From NCBI RefSeq assembly GCF_001421515.1, contig NZ_LMKM01000009.1:86-64085 (forward strand): a stretch of DNA of 64,000 nt. Direction: 5' to 3'. This document shows, in pieces, positions 38,009 through 57,966 of this stretch (its first letter is position 1; each line of letters opens with the position of its first letter). Under the pieces are notes generated by a model, which made no database searches, was not told the origin of the DNA, and was given only the letters and a program-made list of their open reading frames with translations. Origin of the DNA: Pedobacter sp. Leaf216 (GTDB taxonomy: Bacteria; Bacteroidota; Bacteroidia; Sphingobacteriales; Sphingobacteriaceae). Made by a program: the position numbers and the translations under genes.

Positions 38009-38553
38009 TCTTTAGTGCTTTCCTCTCCGCTAATATTCAGGTTGTTTAAGATTTTAAGATTTTGACCTAGCAACAATGGCGTTATATACTTTGATTTTAA
38101 ATTTTTGTTCTTCAATGAGATTAATTGTCTCAAGAAACGAAGCTAAAAATAAGAACACACTTTTTGCTCGACATTTTTTGTTATCGACTATTGAAAAAAG
38201 ATAGTAAGATTGAAACAATGTTTTTAGAAGGCCGAGTCAGTTTGCCTTTTTTTAGTTTAGCTGGTCAATATAGATAGGCCAATGAGATCAGGTAATTAAT
38301 TTTGGACCAGTGAGCTTTATCTTGTTTATTAGCATTTAATATTTTATGCGAACGGGAGAAACCGATAAATGTTGTTAAAAAATAAACAACCTTAAAGTTT
38401 AATTTATTCTTACTTGTTGTTACTAATCAGGCATTTATTAAAACCGTTCGCAGATAACATTCGTTTCTTAATTAACCTCGCACTTAAAGGCGATAAATTA
38501 AAGGAGTAGCCGAAAACCTCAAACAGAGTAGGCAAAATTAAAATTAAAACGTT
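38009..38553. other. Long upstream region of the peptide-export locus
   Basis: 545 bases with no supportable gene. It holds a perfect 9-bp inverted repeat, TGCGAACGG (38347-38355) and CCGTTCGCA (38444-38452), 88 bases apart. I found no strong TAnnTTTG promoter near the first peptide gene; the region may carry a long leader RNA or regulator sites. Confidence 0.5.
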
Positions 38554-43380: not shown

Positions 43381-43414
43381 AGTGTTTTTTGGTGTGTTTT
43401 TTTACTGATTCCAG

Positions 43415-43777
43415 TGGAGCCGAAGGGAGTCGAACCCTTGTCCAGTTGTGAGATAAATTATACCTTCTACATGCTTATTTTTCAATTGATTTTCGGGAAA
43501 TAAACGGGCTGAAAACCGACCTTATTTAAATCCTTAGATACTTTATCTCACTTTAAGTCGTATCTCCTTAAAGCCAGCTTTGTTGTTTCGATGCCCCGGA
43601 TTCTAACCCAACAATGCAGCAGTTAGAGGGACAAAAGCTAGTTAGTTCTAAACTAAGCAGCTAAGGCGTAAGTATTTTCGCCAACTAAAATGTGATCGTT
43701 CACTTTAAGTGCTCTCCGAACAACGCACTGCATGCTAACATAACCTTCGCCACCCCGTCAAATCCAAGAACGGCCCC
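43415..43777 (-). ncRNA. ssrA: Transfer-messenger RNA (tmRNA)
   Basis: Rescues stalled ribosomes and tags their proteins. On the minus strand the 5' end reads GGGGCCGTTCTTGGATTTGA, and the 3' end reads GGGTTCGACTCCCTTCGGCTCC-A; GGGGCCG pairs with CGGCTCC as the acceptor stem, and GGTTCGACTCC is the T arm. The tag reading frame (43653-43682) starts at GGC and encodes GENTYALAA followed by TAG. CCA is not encoded; the genome continues CTGG after the discriminator A at 43415. About 363 nucleotides, normal length. Confidence 0.95.
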
Positions 43778-52234: not shown

Positions 52235-53332
52235 TTAAATTACACTTGCTTTATTTCTTAAAAACTGATCAGCTAAAACCAGGGCGGCCATCGCTTCTAC
52301 AATTACCACAGCTCTGGGAACCACACATGGATCGTGCCTGCCTTTTCCTTTAATTTCTGAAGCTTCACCAGCGGCATTAATGGTTTGCTGGTTGTGCATT
52401 ATGGTTGCAACAGGTTTAAAAGCTACTTTAAAAGTAATATCCATTCCGTTAGAAATGCCACCCAAAATACCACCGGCATAATTGGTAGTGGTTTTAAATA
52501 CTTTAGCATCTGCATTCTTTGGTTGTGGAATATCATTGTGTTGCGATCCTCTTAATTCGCTTCCTGCAAAACCAGAGCCATATTCAAAGCCATGTACGGC
52601 ATTAATACTCAGCATTGCCTTGCCCAAATCGGCATGTAATTTATCAAAAACAGGCTCTCCTAAACCAGCCGGACAACCCTTTATAACACAACCAATTTTT
52701 CCGCCAACGGTATCTCCGTCTTTACGAACTGAATCAATAAACTCAATCATTTCGTGTGCCGTTGCAGGATCAGCGCAGCGCACAATATTTTCTTCCCTGA
52801 TTTGAAGTAGCGCAGCTAAATCATTGCTTTCTAAATTTGGTGCTTCGATAGTACCTACCGAAGTAACGTGAGCAAAAATTTCGATACCCTGCTGTTTTAA
52901 AAACAATTTGGCAATTGCACCTGCAGCTACACGGGCAGCTGTTTCACGGGCAGAAGAACGGCCTCCGCCACGGTGATCACGAATACCATATTTTGCATCA
53001 TAAACATAATCGGCATGGCTCGGACGGTAAATATCAACATTGTGGCCATAATCTTTTGAGCGTTGATCTTCGTTCGGAATTAAAAGTGCAATCGGTGTAC
53101 CTGTACTTTTTCCTTCAAAAATGCCCGACAAAATCTGAACGGTATCGCTTTCTTTCCTTTGTGTGGTTATTTTGGATTGACCCGGTTTACGTTTATCCAG
53201 TTCTGACTGGATAAAATCCATATCAATATCCAACTGCGCCGGACAGCCGTCAATAATTACCCCAATTGCTACGCCATGAGATTCGCCAAAGGTAGTGATG
53301 CGAAATAGTTGCCCGAATGAATTGCCTGCCAT
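52235..53332 (-). CDS. aroC: Chorismate synthase
   Basis: Converts 5-enolpyruvylshikimate 3-phosphate to chorismate, the last common step of the shikimate pathway; needs reduced FMN. A 365-residue protein with all three signature regions: [19 protein letters not shown], the basic [39 protein letters not shown] and [11 protein letters not shown], ending with [19 protein letters not shown]. Standard length. It is followed 2 bases later by the DUF1684 gene and preceded by aroA with a 147-base gap containing short repeats. Confidence 0.96.
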
Positions 53333-53340
53333 ATTATTTA

Positions 53341-53490
53341 GATGTTAGATTTGAGATAATAGATTTGAGATTTACACCTCAAGCCCTACTCAAATCTAGT
53401 TAGCTTGTTGTTTATTTGTCTTAATTTAATCTAGTGTTCAACCCTGGTATAGATTCTCTCAAATCTCCTATCTCGTGTCTCAAATCTCTT
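53341..53490. repeat. AGATTTGAGA repeat cluster
   Basis: In the aroA-aroC gap, TTAGATTTGAGATAATAGAT and the following AGATTTGAGATTT (53344-53373) are mirrored by TCTCAAATCTCC and TCTCAAATCTCTTT (53458-53490, reaching the aroA end). The repeated unit is AGATTTGAGA in both orientations. Typical of short intergenic repeats; no function assigned. Confidence 0.6.
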
Positions 53491-54769
53491 TCACATCAAA
53501 TCCTGCTTTTTTCAAATCTTCCCAATAATATGGATAAGATTTTTCTACTACCTGCATTTCTTCAATTTCAACTTCGTTAATTAATAGTGCAAGTGGTGCA
53601 AAAGCCATCGCCATACGGTGGTCTTCGTAGGTGGCAAACGTAACTTTATCAGGAAAATGAAGATTTTCGGTATTTAAAGTATATATCAGATTTTCTTCTG
53701 TAAAAGTAACCCCAATTTTAGCCAATTCGTTCTGAAGGGCAGCAACACGGTCTGTTTCTTTAATTTTTAAGGTTTCTAAGCCTGTAAAAGCCATATTTTT
53801 ACCTAAAGCAGCCGCAATAACCACTATAGTTTGTGCTAAATCAGGGCAGGTTTTTAAGTCTAAAACTTCTTTTGTATCTAAAGTAAGGCCTAAATTGCTA
53901 ATGGCTATTCCTTTATCGGTTTTGCTGGTAGCGATGCCAAAAATCTTCATAATATTTTTGATCTGGCTATCGCCCTGCAAACTTTTCTCTTTTAATGCAG
54001 GTAAACTAATTTCTGCCTCATCAGCCAGTGCTGCAATGCTATACCAATAAGATGCTGCACTCCAATCAGGTTCAACAACCAGGGTGCCAGGTTTAAAAGC
54101 CTGTGGTTTAATGGTAATCGAATTTCCGTTCCAGGCATGTTCAATCCCAACTTCGGCAAGCATATCCAAAGTCATATCTACATAAGGCTTTGAAGTAAGT
54201 TCGCCTTCAATCTCTAAAGTTAATCCCTGGGGCAGGATAGGGGCAATCATCAGCAAAGCTGAAATATATTGACTGCTGATATCGCCTTTGATTTTAACTT
54301 CGGCTGTTTTTTGGTTTAAAGGGCCAACAATGTTTAACGGTGGAAAACCATCTGCTTCCGCATAGGATATGTCAGCTCCGATTGTTCTCAATGCTTCAGC
54401 TAAAATCCCTATTGGGCGTTGTTTCATCCGTTCGGTTCCTGTTAAAAGGAAATTGCCATTTTTGGCGGAAAGATAAGCTGATAAGAAGCGCATGGCAGTA
54501 CCGGCAGGGCCAACATCAACAAGTTCAGAGTTTGCAGTTTTCAGTTTAGCTTCTGCTCCTGTATCACTAGTTTCAACACCCAACTTGTTTAAGATACCGT
54601 TTAATGTTACCGTATCGGCAGCATTGGAAAGATTTTCTACTTTAACCAGTTTTTTGCTTAAAGCGCTAATAATCAAAGCCCTGTTGCACTCACTTTTAGA
54701 GCCTGTTAATTGGATTTCCGTATCAATATTCTTGGTTCCTTTAAAAGAAACTAAGGCGTTTTTCGACAT
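53480..54769 (-). CDS. aroA: 3-phosphoshikimate 1-carboxyvinyltransferase
   Basis: EPSP synthase: joins phosphoenolpyruvate to shikimate 3-phosphate. A 429-residue two-domain protein with GSKSECNRALIISAL at the N-terminus (phosphate-binding), AGTAMRFLSAY, the TGTERMKQRPIG segment with its catalytic residues, and the C-terminal IKETDRVAALQNELAKIG and TYEDHRMAMAFA motifs. The LTGTERMKQRPI region replaces the common LTGxxxxRxRP form. Lies between the DAHP synthase and aroC genes of the operon. Confidence 0.95.
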   Translation of the reverse strand: MSKNALVSFKGTKNIDTEIQLTGSKSECNRALIISALSKKLVKVENLSNAADTVTLNGILNKLGVETSDTGAEAKLKTANSELVDVGPAGTAMRFLSAYLSAKNGNFLLTGTERMKQRPIGILAEALRTIGADISYAEADGFPPLNIVGPLNQKTAEVKIKGDISSQYISALLMIAPILPQGLTLEIEGELTSKPYVDMTLDMLAEVGIEHAWNGNSITIKPQAFKPGTLVVEPDWSAASYWYSIAALADEAEISLPALKEKSLQGDSQIKNIMKIFGIATSKTDKGIAISNLGLTLDTKEVLDLKTCPDLAQTIVVIAAALGKNMAFTGLETLKIKETDRVAALQNELAKIGVTFTEENLIYTLNTENLHFPDKVTFATYEDHRMAMAFAPLALLINEVEIEEMQVVEKSYPYYWEDLKKAGFDVKEI

Positions 54770-54944: not shown

Positions 54945-56084
54945 CTACGCTTTAACCTCAGTATGTTGCTCAGCTGCAATGCCTTTTTCAGCTTTGCCTG
55001 CATTCATAATTTCAGTTTGTTTACGGATCGATTCACCGTGCATCAATTCTAAGAATTTCTCAGTAAAGTTTAAGTCTAATTTTAAAGCTTTTGCAAAAGC
55101 ATGACCTTTTTTAATGATGGCATCCCAACGGTTAACCTGTAAAATAGTTACCTGGTTATCACGTTTAAATTCGCCGATTTTCTCAACGATAGCCATACGC
55201 TCACCTAATTTCTGTAATAAAATATCATCGATTTTATCGATTGATTTACGTAAGTCAGCTAATTTATCAGCAAAAGCTTCGTTTGGCGCTTCTGGTTCAC
55301 GAACGGTTAAACGATCAACCAATTCAGCTAAAGCAGCAGGAGTAACTTGTTGTTTAGCATCTGTCCAGGCCACTGAAGGATCTACGTGAGATTCGATCAT
55401 TAAACCTTGCATATCTAAATCCAATGCTTTTTGAGAAATGTAAGGGATTAACTCACGGTTACCGCAAATGTGGCTTGGATCGTTAATGATTGGTAACTCA
55501 GGGCAAAGTGTTTTTAATTGGATAGCCAGTTCCCACATTGGTTCGTTACGGAAAGAACTTTTCTCGAATGAAGAGAATCCGCGGTGAATAGCACCAATTT
55601 TAGTAATTCCAGCACCGTTAATACGTTCAATTGCACCAATCCATAATTGTAAATCAGGGTTAACTGGGTTTTTAATCAATACCGGAACATCATGTCCTTT
55701 TAAAGCATCAGCAATTTCCTGAACGGTAAAAGGGTTTACAGTAGAGCGTGCGCCAATCCATAAAATATCTACACCAGCTGCCAAAGCCTCTTCAACATGT
55801 TTTGCATTTGCAACCTCTACAGCTGTTGGTAAACCAGTTTCTGCTTTAGCACGTTTTAACCACTCTAAACCAATACTTCCAATACCTTCAAATTCTCCCG
55901 GACGGGTACGTGGTTTCCAGATGCCAGCTCTCAATACCGATACTTTACCAGTAGCAGCTAATAAATGTGCTGTAGTTAATAATTGTTCTTCAGTTTCTGC
56001 ACTGCAAGGACCAGAAATGATTAATGGTTCGTTGTTTACGTTTAACCAGGTGTTTAATGGTTGGATGTTTAAATTAAGTTTCAT
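54945..56084 (-). CDS. Bifunctional DAHP synthase/chorismate mutase
   Basis: A 379-residue fusion catalysing the first shikimate step (PEP plus erythrose 4-phosphate) and the chorismate-to-prephenate step. The N-terminal ~260 residues are a type I-beta DAHP synthase: IISGPCSAETEEQLL, SVLRAGIWKPRTRPGEFEGIG, VLIKNPVNPD, GAIHRGFSSFE and DPSHICGN. The C-terminal ~90 residues are an AroQ-type chorismate mutase (LRKSIDKIDDILLQKLGERMAIVEKIGEFKRDNQ, with the catalytic Arg/Lys). This fusion is the common Bacteroidota form and may be feedback-controlled through the mutase domain. It lies 111 bases after pheA. Confidence 0.93.
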   Translation of the reverse strand: MKLNLNIQPLNTWLNVNNEPLIISGPCSAETEEQLLTTAHLLAATGKVSVLRAGIWKPRTRPGEFEGIGSIGLEWLKRAKAETGLPTAVEVANAKHVEEALAAGVDILWIGARSTVNPFTVQEIADALKGHDVPVLIKNPVNPDLQLWIGAIERINGAGITKIGAIHRGFSSFEKSSFRNEPMWELAIQLKTLCPELPIINDPSHICGNRELIPYISQKALDLDMQGLMIESHVDPSVAWTDAKQQVTPAALAELVDRLTVREPEAPNEAFADKLADLRKSIDKIDDILLQKLGERMAIVEKIGEFKRDNQVTILQVNRWDAIIKKGHAFAKALKLDLNFTEKFLELMHGESIRKQTEIMNAGKAEKGIAAEQHTEVKA

Positions 56085-56195: not shown

Positions 56196-57029
56196 TTATA
56201 CTTTATCATTCTTTTGGTATTCGCCAAGTATATTAAAGTTTGAAGTATATTTTAATGCTTTTCTAATTGCTTTATCATACTTCTCTGTGCTTGGCCACTC
56301 TAAATCAACATAAAAGTAATATTCGTTTCTTTTACCCAATACCGGCATAGATTGTATTTTTGTTAAGCTTACATCCTGTTCGGCAAAGATGTTTAAAACG
56401 GTAGCCAAGGAGCCTGCTTTGTGGCCAACCTGAAAACAGATTGATGCTTTGTTTATTCTCTTTCCTTCGTCTGTTTTATCTTTTTTAAGGATCAGAAAGC
56501 GCGTATAGTTTTTCTTATTGGATTCTACCCGGCGTTCCAGAATGTTTAATCCGTATAATTCTGATGCTAAGCTGTTAGCAATGGCCATTGTATCCGTTAA
56601 TTTTTCATCCTGGATACGTTTTGCGCAGGCAGCAGTATCATTGCTCTCTACAATTTTAATATGCGGGTAATCGTAAAAGAAATCGATACATTGGCGGATG
56701 GCGATCGGGTGGGAGGTAACCACTTTAATGTCTTCAAATTTTACACCCGGTAGTGCCATTAAGTGCAATTGAATAGGAAGGTAAACTTCGCCTACAACTG
56801 AAAATCCATAATCGCGGATTAAAGTGTAATTGGGTAATAAACTGCCTGCTATGGAGTTTTCTATAGCCATTACCACAAAGTCGGCTTCATTTTTCTCAAG
56901 CTTGTCGCAGGTTTCTTTAAAAGAATTACACTCAACAGTTTCGATGTTTTTACCAAAGAATTTGTAAGCGGCTTCTTCGTGGAAAGATGCTTTAATACCC
57001 TGAATTGCTACTCGTTTTGTCGTTTCCAT
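56196..57029 (-). CDS. pheA: Prephenate dehydratase
   Basis: Converts prephenate to phenylpyruvate, the committed phenylalanine step. A 277-residue protein: a dehydratase domain (VAIQGIKASFHEEAA, FVVMAIENSIAGSL, then the TRFLIL motif containing the catalytic Thr-Arg-Phe) and a C-terminal ACT domain (ICFQVGHKAGSLATVLNIFAEQDVSLTKIQSMP, which keeps the ESRP-like region as IQSMP) for phenylalanine feedback. It is the first gene of the aromatic operon and is preceded by a Phe/Tyr leader peptide, an antiterminator segment and a terminator. Confidence 0.94.
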   Translation of the reverse strand: METTKRVAIQGIKASFHEEAAYKFFGKNIETVECNSFKETCDKLEKNEADFVVMAIENSIAGSLLPNYTLIRDYGFSVVGEVYLPIQLHLMALPGVKFEDIKVVTSHPIAIRQCIDFFYDYPHIKIVESNDTAACAKRIQDEKLTDTMAIANSLASELYGLNILERRVESNKKNYTRFLILKKDKTDEGKRINKASICFQVGHKAGSLATVLNIFAEQDVSLTKIQSMPVLGKRNEYYFYVDLEWPSTEKYDKAIRKALKYTSNFNILGEYQKNDKV

Positions 57030-57043
57030 TTTTGCGTTAAAAC

Positions 57044-57076
57044 AAAAAAGTCCCGGCTGTTTGCCGGGACTTTTTT
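57044..57076 (-). terminator. Attenuator terminator of the aromatic operon
   Basis: On the minus strand AAAAAAGTCCCGGC pairs with GCCGGGACTTTTTT (14 bp perfect, 5-base loop) and ends in six U, 15 bases before the pheA ATG. Its 5' arm can instead pair with the leader segment GCCGGGGCU at 57122-57114. Confidence 0.9.
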
Positions 57077-57111
57077 ATACATTTTAATATTTTTATATAT
57101 CTTTTTGCATA

Positions 57112-57174
57112 TTAGCCCCGGCTCTCACTAAAATAGTAAAAGTAACCAAAGTAATATGTGTTAAAATTTTTCAT
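57112..57174 (-). CDS. Phe/Tyr-rich attenuation leader peptide
   Basis: A 20-codon frame from ATG at 57174 to TAA at 57112 reads MKNFNTYYFGYFYYFSESRG: four Phe and five Tyr. It lies upstream of pheA, 36 bases before the attenuator hairpin. The last codons and the stop (GCC GGG GCT region) overlap the antiterminator segment, the classic arrangement in which a ribosome stalled at Phe/Tyr codons lets the antiterminator form. Functional assignment is inferred from this architecture. Confidence 0.88.
   Translation of the reverse strand: MKNFNTYYFGYFYYFSESRG
57114..57122 (-). promoter_or_regulatory. Antiterminator segment
   Basis: GCCGGGGCU (57122 to 57114, minus strand) can form 9 bp, one of them G-U, with AGUCCCGGC (57071 to 57063), the 5' arm of the terminator. 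The two structures are mutually exclusive. The segment spans the last codons of the leader peptide and the first base of its stop. Confidence 0.75.
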
Positions 57175-57191
57175 TCTTTTTTTTGTTGAGC

Positions 57192-57222
57192 CAAATGTAG
57201 GGAACAAAATTTAATTTGTCAA
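57192..57222 (-). promoter_or_regulatory. Promoter of the aromatic operon
   Basis: On the minus strand TTG (57220-57222) and TACATTTG (57192-57199) fit TTG-N20-TAnnTTTG. Transcription would start near 57186, about 12 bases before the leader-peptide ATG. Confidence 0.6.
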
Positions 57223-57345: not shown

Positions 57346-57966
57346 TTATTCTGTCATTTTTTTGGTAACAGCTAAGATGGCACTGGTCATATATTCGCCT
57401 AAATAGCTCACGTAATTGCCGTTTCTGTCAATCACCACAAAACTGCCGGAGGGATAATGATATTTGAAAAAATGTTTCTTGATGCTTTGTTCCGGATCTT
57501 TGATCCAGTTGATTGAAGAACCATATTGCCCGGTACCAGTTATTTCAGCGTAAATGTATATTGGCTTTATTTTATACTGCTTTAATAATGCTGTTTTCAA
57601 TTCTTTGTGTTTGGCCTTAATGTAATCAGTATTTCCAGTGGAATTGGAACTGTCCTGTCCAGGATGATAAATTATTACAATTGGCTTTAGCGAATCAATT
57701 TCTTTATTTGATGCTGTTTCTAACAATAAAAGGAGTTTGGTTTTATCCTTTATTTTGCCTTGCTCTTCTCTGTTAATCAGTTTGCGATGATTGGATGAAT
57801 CGCCTGGAATATCTAAAAAAACATTAGTAGATCTTTTCTCATCGAATACAGATTTATTGATTTCTTTATTATCTATATCAAAATACCTAATATTTTTAAC
57901 TTCTTGGGCTTTGGTATTGAGTATTAGAATAAACAATGTTAAGGTGGAGAGCATTAAGTTTTTCAT
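57346..57966 (-). CDS. Hypothetical exported protein
   Basis: A 206-residue protein with a signal peptide (ends TKAQ). The mature part has a pattern of strands and helices (LKPIVIIYHPGQDSSN, IKPIYIYAEITGTG, PSGSFVVIDRNGNYVSYLGEYM) suggesting a thioredoxin-like fold with the active-site cysteines absent. I do not recognise a named family. It stands alone in AT-rich surroundings, upstream of the aromatic operon but with a 171-base gap from the leader. Function unknown. Confidence 0.65.
   Translation of the reverse strand: MKNLMLSTLTLFILILNTKAQEVKNIRYFDIDNKEINKSVFDEKRSTNVFLDIPGDSSNHRKLINREEQGKIKDKTKLLLLLETASNKEIDSLKPIVIIYHPGQDSSNSTGNTDYIKAKHKELKTALLKQYKIKPIYIYAEITGTGQYGSSINWIKDPEQSIKKHFFKYHYPSGSFVVIDRNGNYVSYLGEYMTSAILAVTKKMTE

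Follow-up and report, generated by a model that had tools for sequence, protein, structure and literature searches.

Leader-peptide attenuation is known mostly from Proteobacteria. The trp attenuator of Escherichia coli is a three-way switch, built from the pairings 1:2, 2:3 and 3:4 and coupled to translation, as we propose below for an element upstream of pheA in Pedobacter. One leader may read more than one amino acid, as in enterobacterial thrL (Thr and Ile) and ilvL (Ile, Val and Leu), which concern other amino acids and genes than those treated here. The pheL-pheA system of E. coli (Rfam RF01859, Phe_leader) resembles the Pedobacter element in its leader filled with Phe codons, in a region 2 located just past the last control codon (offset 11 nt), and in a terminator placed before pheA. 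However, pheL has no Tyr or Trp codons and differs from the Pedobacter leader in letters and lengths, and the window analysed here (the whole stretch of 64,000 nucleotides) scores 28.7 bits against the RF01859 model, below its gathering cut-off of 55. The genes differ as well: E. coli pheA encodes a fused chorismate mutase/prephenate dehydratase and is followed by a convergent tyrA, whereas in the window the chorismate mutase is fused to DAHP synthase instead, and aroA and aroC follow. E. coli trpL is comparable in its offset of 17 nt from the last Trp codon, but it contains two Trp codons and its region 2 begins after the leader stop, whereas the main region 2 of the window lies inside the leader ORF.

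The Bacteroidetes/Chlorobi are reportedly named among the attenuator predictions of Vitreschak et al. 2004 (FEMS Microbiol Lett), to whom priority may belong. A 2021 transcriptome of Flavobacterium psychrophilum describes structured 5' elements ahead of a set of genes that includes pheA, without Rfam hits and present also in other Flavobacteriaceae genera, together with strong indications that amino-acid operons are under leader-peptide attenuation (PMC9723704). Like the element described here, the F. psychrophilum one is structured, lies 5' of pheA and belongs to the same phylum; unlike it, it comes with no peptide, codon analysis or anatomy in the accessible text of that report, which covers Flavobacteriaceae only (PMC9723704). 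Leader-like small ORFs are mentioned in general in a Bacteroides thetaiotaomicron map (PMC7366714), and a 2010 survey states that, to its authors' knowledge, there was no attenuation case outside Proteobacteria and Actinobacteria before their own Firmicutes case (PMC2965389). Our literature search, partly of excerpted texts and with PMC2864571 and PMC4833913 also among them, returned no Bacteroidota pheA preceded by an aromatic leader peptide, the element of PMC9723704 aside. The first-pass annotation of the window had called a clear aromatic case in this phylum less familiar, which holds only in part. Since a pheA 5' element and attenuation are already on record for Flavobacterium (PMC9723704), the present case is a well-supported variant of a known mechanism. 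The mechanism is old; what is added here is the mixed aromatic code, the spread over the class and a spacing rule.

In this soil bacterium the leader region is read from the minus strand, between a 206-residue ORF (57966-57346) and pheA (57029-56196; Table 1). The genome search turned up no prephenate dehydratase match besides PheA, whose ACT-domain match is weak, under the Pfam cut-off. The order pheA, DAHP synthase/chorismate mutase, aroA, aroC recurs in 77 of 80 named relatives; the remaining three loci have the first part of this order only, which fits loci that stop short. The downstream genes supply all three aromatic amino acids and are separated by gaps of 111-175 nt, which leave space for internal promoters. 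We dropped the idea that pheA is the sole route to Phe and Tyr (no tyrA, with Tyr made via Phe hydroxylase) because the genome, which has a Biopterin_H protein, also holds an unlinked prephenate-dehydrogenase-like gene. Its product (L246, 619-1875, minus strand) is a divergent protein of 418 residues, far under the NCBIfam cut-offs and presumably akin to fungal TYR1; the stretch read upstream of its gene contains no aromatic leader. Elsewhere in the window, Rfam places a DUF805b cis-regulatory RNA at 38500-38534 (plus strand) and a tmRNA at 43412-43777 (minus strand).

Table 1. Features of the pheA leader locus, in positions of the window.
Feature	Positions	Strand	Basis
Bacteroidota-type promoter: TTG 57222-57220, 20-nt spacer, TACATTTG 57199-57192	57192..57222	-	sequence
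Leader ORF, 20 codons, MKNFNTYYFGYFYYFSESRG; four Phe and five Tyr control codons	57112..57174	-	translation; counterpart in 80/80 named relatives
Region 1, 5' side of the 1:2 protector hairpin, spans most control codons	57134..57158	-	fold, nt 17-41 from leader ATG
Region 2, GCCGGGGC 57122-57115 and UAUGCA 57111-57106; partner is region 1 or 3	57106..57122	-	nt 53-60 and 64-69 from ATG
Region 3, UGUAUA 57081-57076 and GUCCCGGC 57070-57063; antiterminator partner and terminator 5' arm	57063..57081	-	nt 94-99 and 105-112
Region 4, GCCGGGAC 57057-57050 and U tract (U6)	57044..57057	-	GCCGGGAC at nt 118-125 from ATG
pheA, prephenate dehydratase	56196..57029	-	Pfam PF00800, 2.9e-55
DAHP synthase fused to chorismate mutase, gene after pheA	54945..56084	-	PF00793, PF01817
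aroA, EPSP synthase	53480..54769	-	PF00275
aroC, chorismate synthase	52235..53332	-	PF01264

The promoter match of the first-pass annotation, TTG-N20-TACATTTG, is indeed seen on the minus strand (57222-57192) and is called a promoter on the basis of the Bacteroidota consensus. The pattern TTG-N17-21-TAnnTTTG occurs within 270 nt upstream of the leader core in 80/80 Pedobacter-group loci, compared with 3.5% of random 270-nt stretches, and in 45/55 other Sphingobacteriaceae, but in just 25/55 further loci (a set that includes L281, discussed below). A 15-mer that begins at the promoter TTG, TTGACAAATTAAATT (57222-57208), is present in all 80 Pedobacter-group loci, with A or T at one position. 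The exact 15-mer has its sole copy in the window genome at this promoter, and no copy lies within 200 nt of the leader in the 55 other Sphingobacteriaceae and the 55 further loci; the 15-mer is possibly an operator or a promoter extension.

The leader ORF (57174-57112, MKNFNTYYFGYFYYFSESRG and a stop) carries the 20 codons that had been annotated, with four for Phe, five for Tyr and none for Trp, and so is a short ORF that follows the promoter and holds a cluster of codons for products of the pathway. ORFs with at least seven F/Y/W in ten codons occur in 10/3378 random 400-nt Pedobacter stretches, and none of the ten is followed by a terminator, that is, 0/3378 stretches have both. A search for a second aromatic leader in the window genome found the pattern at six places (a control pattern at three); the other five places have no Met before the cluster in a stop-to-stop reading that takes Met starts only, GTG and TTG being set apart.

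Downstream of the promoter, three mutually exclusive hairpins are predicted: a 1:2 protector, a 2:3 antiterminator and a 3:4 terminator. The segment GCCGGGGC, which overlaps the leader end, is complementary, with one G-U pair, to the terminator 5' arm GUCCCGGC; as the annotation had it, this arm is common to 2:3 and 3:4, so that antiterminator and terminator exclude each other. The intrinsic terminator is a 14-pair stem (57076-57044, U tract included) that ends in six U, again as annotated; its end lies 14 nt before pheA. Two elements had been overlooked, namely an inner antiterminator helix, UAUGCA:UGUAUA (57111-57106 with 57081-57076), and the 22-pair 1:2 protector hairpin (57158-57108), which makes the layout three-way. 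An intrinsic terminator thus lies between the leader and pheA, accompanied by a predicted antiterminator that shares its arm and by the predicted protector. The fold of the leader region has z = -7.71, and none of 200 shuffles is equally stable. Our general terminator scan gives the hairpin of the pheA leader on the plus strand only, the minus-strand reading being taken from the sequence itself, and it counts about as many terminator-like sites in the region as in shuffles (6 versus 5.1).

The predicted energies are -17.9 kcal/mol for 1:2, -17.9 for 2:3 and -20.2 for 3:4. Masking was done with an assumed ribosome footprint. With the ribosome on codon 8, 12, 14 or 15 and region 4 still to be transcribed, the best fold is 2:3; a ribosome at the stop codon covers region 2, and 3:4 is then the sole remaining structure; and with no ribosome present the complete RNA adopts 1:2 plus 3:4. 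The lowest-energy fold without a ribosome before region 4 is made is 2:3, so the energies leave the untranslated state unsettled. For the full RNA, all the maskings examined end in 3:4, and at equilibrium 3:4 (-20.2) beats 2:3 (-17.9), from which we infer that the switch depends on the order of folding, the choice being made during transcription.

The reading that we favor, with a probability of roughly 0.93 and on grounds of sequence, is a classical leader-peptide transcription attenuator that would read the supply of charged aromatic tRNA and set pheA and probably the aromatic genes that follow. When Phe-tRNA or Tyr-tRNA is scarce (in many relatives, also Trp-tRNA), the leading ribosome would stall in the codon cluster and occupy region 1, leaving region 2 free to pair with region 3 before region 4 exists, so that no terminator would form and transcription would proceed into pheA. 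With ample charged tRNA, the ribosome would reach the stop codon and cover region 2, and 3:4 would end transcription. If the leader is not translated, 1:2 would form first, and 3:4 would remain to terminate. The first-pass annotation had arrived at a Phe/Tyr leader-peptide attenuator, and this reading is supported by the conserved codon bias and pairing, the masked folds, and the distance from codon to antiterminator.

Conservation was followed in the best 80 of 97 PheA relatives in the named genomes, nearly all titled Pedobacter. By script, a leader and a terminator precede pheA in 80/80 of these loci, and the alignment of relatives that had been suggested as a check bears out codon bias and pairing. 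The peptide core is T-Y-[Y/W]-F-G-Y-F-Y-[Y/F]-F-S-[K/E]-S-[R/Q]-[G/D], with rare departures. Codon counts cover the 76 cores that share one length, an additional Ser codon setting the remaining four apart; in these 76 the control codons vary synonymously and residue changes are from aromatic to aromatic. Five leaders contain GCCAGGAC, with terminator arms GUCCUGGC/GCCAGGAC in three, GUCCUGGC/GUCAGGAC in one and GUCCUAGU/ACUAGGAC in one; all five keep the ability to form 3:4 by compensation. Among 32 sequences, 3:4 is paired in 100% of cells, with changes on both sides in 5/11 pairs, and 0/500 shuffles are as good. The 2:3 helix is 98.0% paired and has one pair with double changes (four sequences); as many double-change pairs arise in 314/500 shuffles, and as many such cells in 1/500. 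The 1:2 helix is paired in 95.2% of cells with zero double changes, and its covariation score is reached by 373/500 shuffles. Covariation inside the genus is thin for 2:3 and 1:2.

Pairing between region 2 and upstream sequence (1:2) was folded for leaders with a 2:3 score of at least 15, i.e., all 80 named, 50/55 other Sphingobacteriaceae and 47/54 from other families. At least half of region 2 pairs upstream in 80/80, 48/50 and 44/47 of them, respectively, as it does in 48, 72 and 75% of the corresponding shuffles. Because shuffles often reach the pairing too, the gap in fold energy is more telling (-18.4, -15.4 and -13.9 versus -8.6, -9.1 and -9.6, in the same order). When terminator arms were swapped between leaders (89 rows kept; rows without a terminator or under the cuts excluded), complementarity was 16.4, compared with 19.7 for a leader's own arm and 10.4 for shuffled ones; the swapped arms keep much of it because GUCCCGG is common to many.

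Outside the named genomes, we sampled 59 of 93 matched other Sphingobacteriaceae, chosen to span the genera, all matches but G302 in the other families of the class (76 of 77), and 22 of 127 matches in other classes, among which top scorers are over-represented. The script, which defines a leader as at least five F/Y/W in ten codons, finds a leader in 59/59, 57/76 and 6/22 of these loci and a leader plus terminator in 55/59, 54/76 and 5/22; in random Pedobacter stretches the background is 293/3000 and 19/3000. L281, from another class, passes the script and looks like chance, and without it the arrangement is present in 4/22. L224 and L226, which repeat the genomes of L184 and L190, were removed before the final counts and are still in the locus counts at the stricter cut (at least seven F/Y/W); for L101 and L105 the leader was chosen by motif, as a chance ORF outscored it. 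In 13 loci the first finder gave no terminator, and by eye all have a hairpin followed by a T-rich run, which in L185 is interrupted by a C; in L217 the hairpin lies nearer the gene than the chosen ORF.

Leader or terminator is missing by script from 22 of the 76 other-family loci. In three leaderless loci, pheA directly follows another coding sequence (aroA by tblastn in L158; L207 and L215 are similar by eye). Eight genomes of one family (f50; L229-L236) keep pheA at 51-53% identity, with no leader found, and have perhaps lost the attenuator. Four loci from other classes of the phylum (L149, L156, L159 and L205) have a PheA unusually near the Bacteroidia type together with an aromatic leader; the two may have been inherited from far back or transferred jointly. 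When 197 genomes of the class were searched with Pfam, 57 were listed with a prephenate dehydratase, every one also matched by the PheA search, so most sampled genomes without a match seem to lack pheA. In the other families, regions 2 and 3 remain complementary in different letters (mean score 18.7 versus 11.6 in shuffles), 44/54 leaders exceeding the 95th percentile of their shuffles; in the other classes this is weak (15.6 versus 11.6; 2/5 above that percentile).

The position of region 2 follows the codons rather than the stop. The offset here means how far past the last aromatic codon, counted from that codon's first base, the stretch that pairs with the terminator 5' arm starts. Across 90 strong cases (2:3 score of at least 17) outside the 80 named loci, the window among them, its median is 13 nt (sd 2.4, range 8-19), whereas the distance from region 2 to the leader stop has an sd of 8.7 in the same cases. 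Unselected, the sd of the offset is 1.8 in 55 other Sphingobacteriaceae, 3.4 in 54 leaders of other families and 11.8 in five of other classes. In the window, region 2 begins 10 nt past the last Phe codon, counted from its first base, which would put it just ahead of a ribosome stalled on that codon, and the offset is 10 in the 80 named loci; the same measure gives the 11 and 17 nt cited above for pheL and trpL. It misfits E. coli hisL (47-50) and the trpE leader of the window genome (23 from codon 10, 1 from codon 19). Counted from the first base of the A-site codon, a stalled ribosome has its front edge some 12-13 nt away, and the spacing fits a ribosome that stops at the last aromatic codon and would just leave region 2 free.

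As to which amino acids are sensed, 135 aligned leaders (80 named and 55 other Sphingobacteriaceae) are 91-100% aromatic at seven of eight core positions and 70% at the eighth, F, Y and W interchange (one position has Y in 56 and W in 55), and the middle position is mostly Gly. A Trp codon is present in 31/80 Pedobacter-group, 27/55 other Sphingobacteriaceae and 21/54 other-family leaders. In the Pedobacter group it goes with GAC as the last leader codon in 31/31, and its absence with another codon in 50/50; on the tree this coupling amounts to just four changes, two of them on supported independent paths, and is suggestive only. Phe and Tyr sensing in one leader, singled out by the first-pass annotation, agrees with the window codons, but since many relatives also use Trp, the pheA leader reads as an aromatic sensor more than as a strictly Phe/Tyr one. 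Given the exchange of Phe, Tyr and Trp and the downstream DAHP synthase, aroA and aroC, general aromatic supply is the most fitting description of the signal, and an aromatic-wide signal would be sensible for those genes. Two further candidate leaders were seen in the same genome. One (L243, G000:C12, reverse complement), MINNIHTWLWQSNSNGLRWLRMNKI, is a candidate Trp leader followed by a strong terminator, AAAGCCCGGCGT/ACGCCGGGCTTT, before trpE; the other (L245, G000:C37), MNLTLNHHLHLHHRR, is a candidate His leader with five His upstream of a hisG match. The script found no terminator at the hisG leader, which may act otherwise.

A narrower specificity, in which the window leader senses Phe and Tyr only and Trp has its own leader at trpE, is a serious contender, if slightly short of an even bet. 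It draws on the lack of Trp codons in the window leader and on the Trp-codon leader and terminator upstream of trpE in the same genome; against it are the Trp-containing leaders of the Pedobacter group and the other Sphingobacteriaceae counted above, in which Trp swaps with Tyr at a control position. The nascent aromatic peptide might itself arrest the ribosome in place of uncharged tRNA, as TnaC exemplifies, and the peptide core is strikingly conserved in Sphingobacteriaceae, its central Gly and SKSR included. We consider such arrest very improbable, given that SKSR is encoded by RNA that is obliged to pair, and that in the other families the peptide differs in length and trades F, Y and W for one another.

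Control of the terminator could instead fall to an RNA that binds a ligand, to a T-box or to an RNA-binding protein, with the leader ORF incidental; terminators in structured 5' regions are typical of riboswitches and T-boxes. At threshold, however, no Rfam model catches the element, and the tmRNA and DUF805b are the only matches in the whole window. The permissive scan gives 41 matches led by leader families under their cut-offs, the best two being Thr_leader (30 bits) and Phe_leader (28.7 bits; cut-offs 55), and a SAM-V match at E = 5 (16.2 bits, cut-off 41). A riboswitch or T-box was ruled out for want of an Rfam match at threshold, and the control positions remain aromatic as the codons vary, with the last aromatic codon setting the spacing; this whole class of explanation is very improbable. 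The hairpin might also be the ordinary 3' terminator of the upstream gene (57346-57966), behind which the short ORF arose by chance: that gene is on the same strand as pheA and ends 316 nt before it, and Phe and Tyr codons are common in so AT-rich a region. But the promoter pattern lies in between and is conserved in 80/80 loci, a leader and terminator pair is rare in random stretches, and the upstream protein is found in the flanks of just 2/80 leader-bearing loci and not in the other 78. An upstream-gene terminator is rejected by this synteny, and its probability is negligible.

In sum, the evidence argues for a leader-peptide attenuator at pheA. Beyond the locus itself, we would wager evenly for and against a more general proposal: that a single aromatic-supply attenuator, old in the class Bacteroidia, governs entry into Phe and Tyr synthesis and the DAHP synthase step; that any of the three aromatic tRNAs triggers it, so that codons drift among Phe, Tyr and Trp while leader length and stop are free; and that selection fixes how far the antiterminator lies from the last aromatic codon, a spacing set by the front edge of the stalled ribosome. 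The predicted attenuator is present in most sampled Bacteroidia loci with pheA, and its nearly 200 natural variants can serve as a mutagenesis experiment done by nature, from which codon choice, spacing and pairing may be read. The element offers a testable candidate for an aromatic-responsive switch in Bacteroidota, in a genome that also holds candidate Trp and His leaders.
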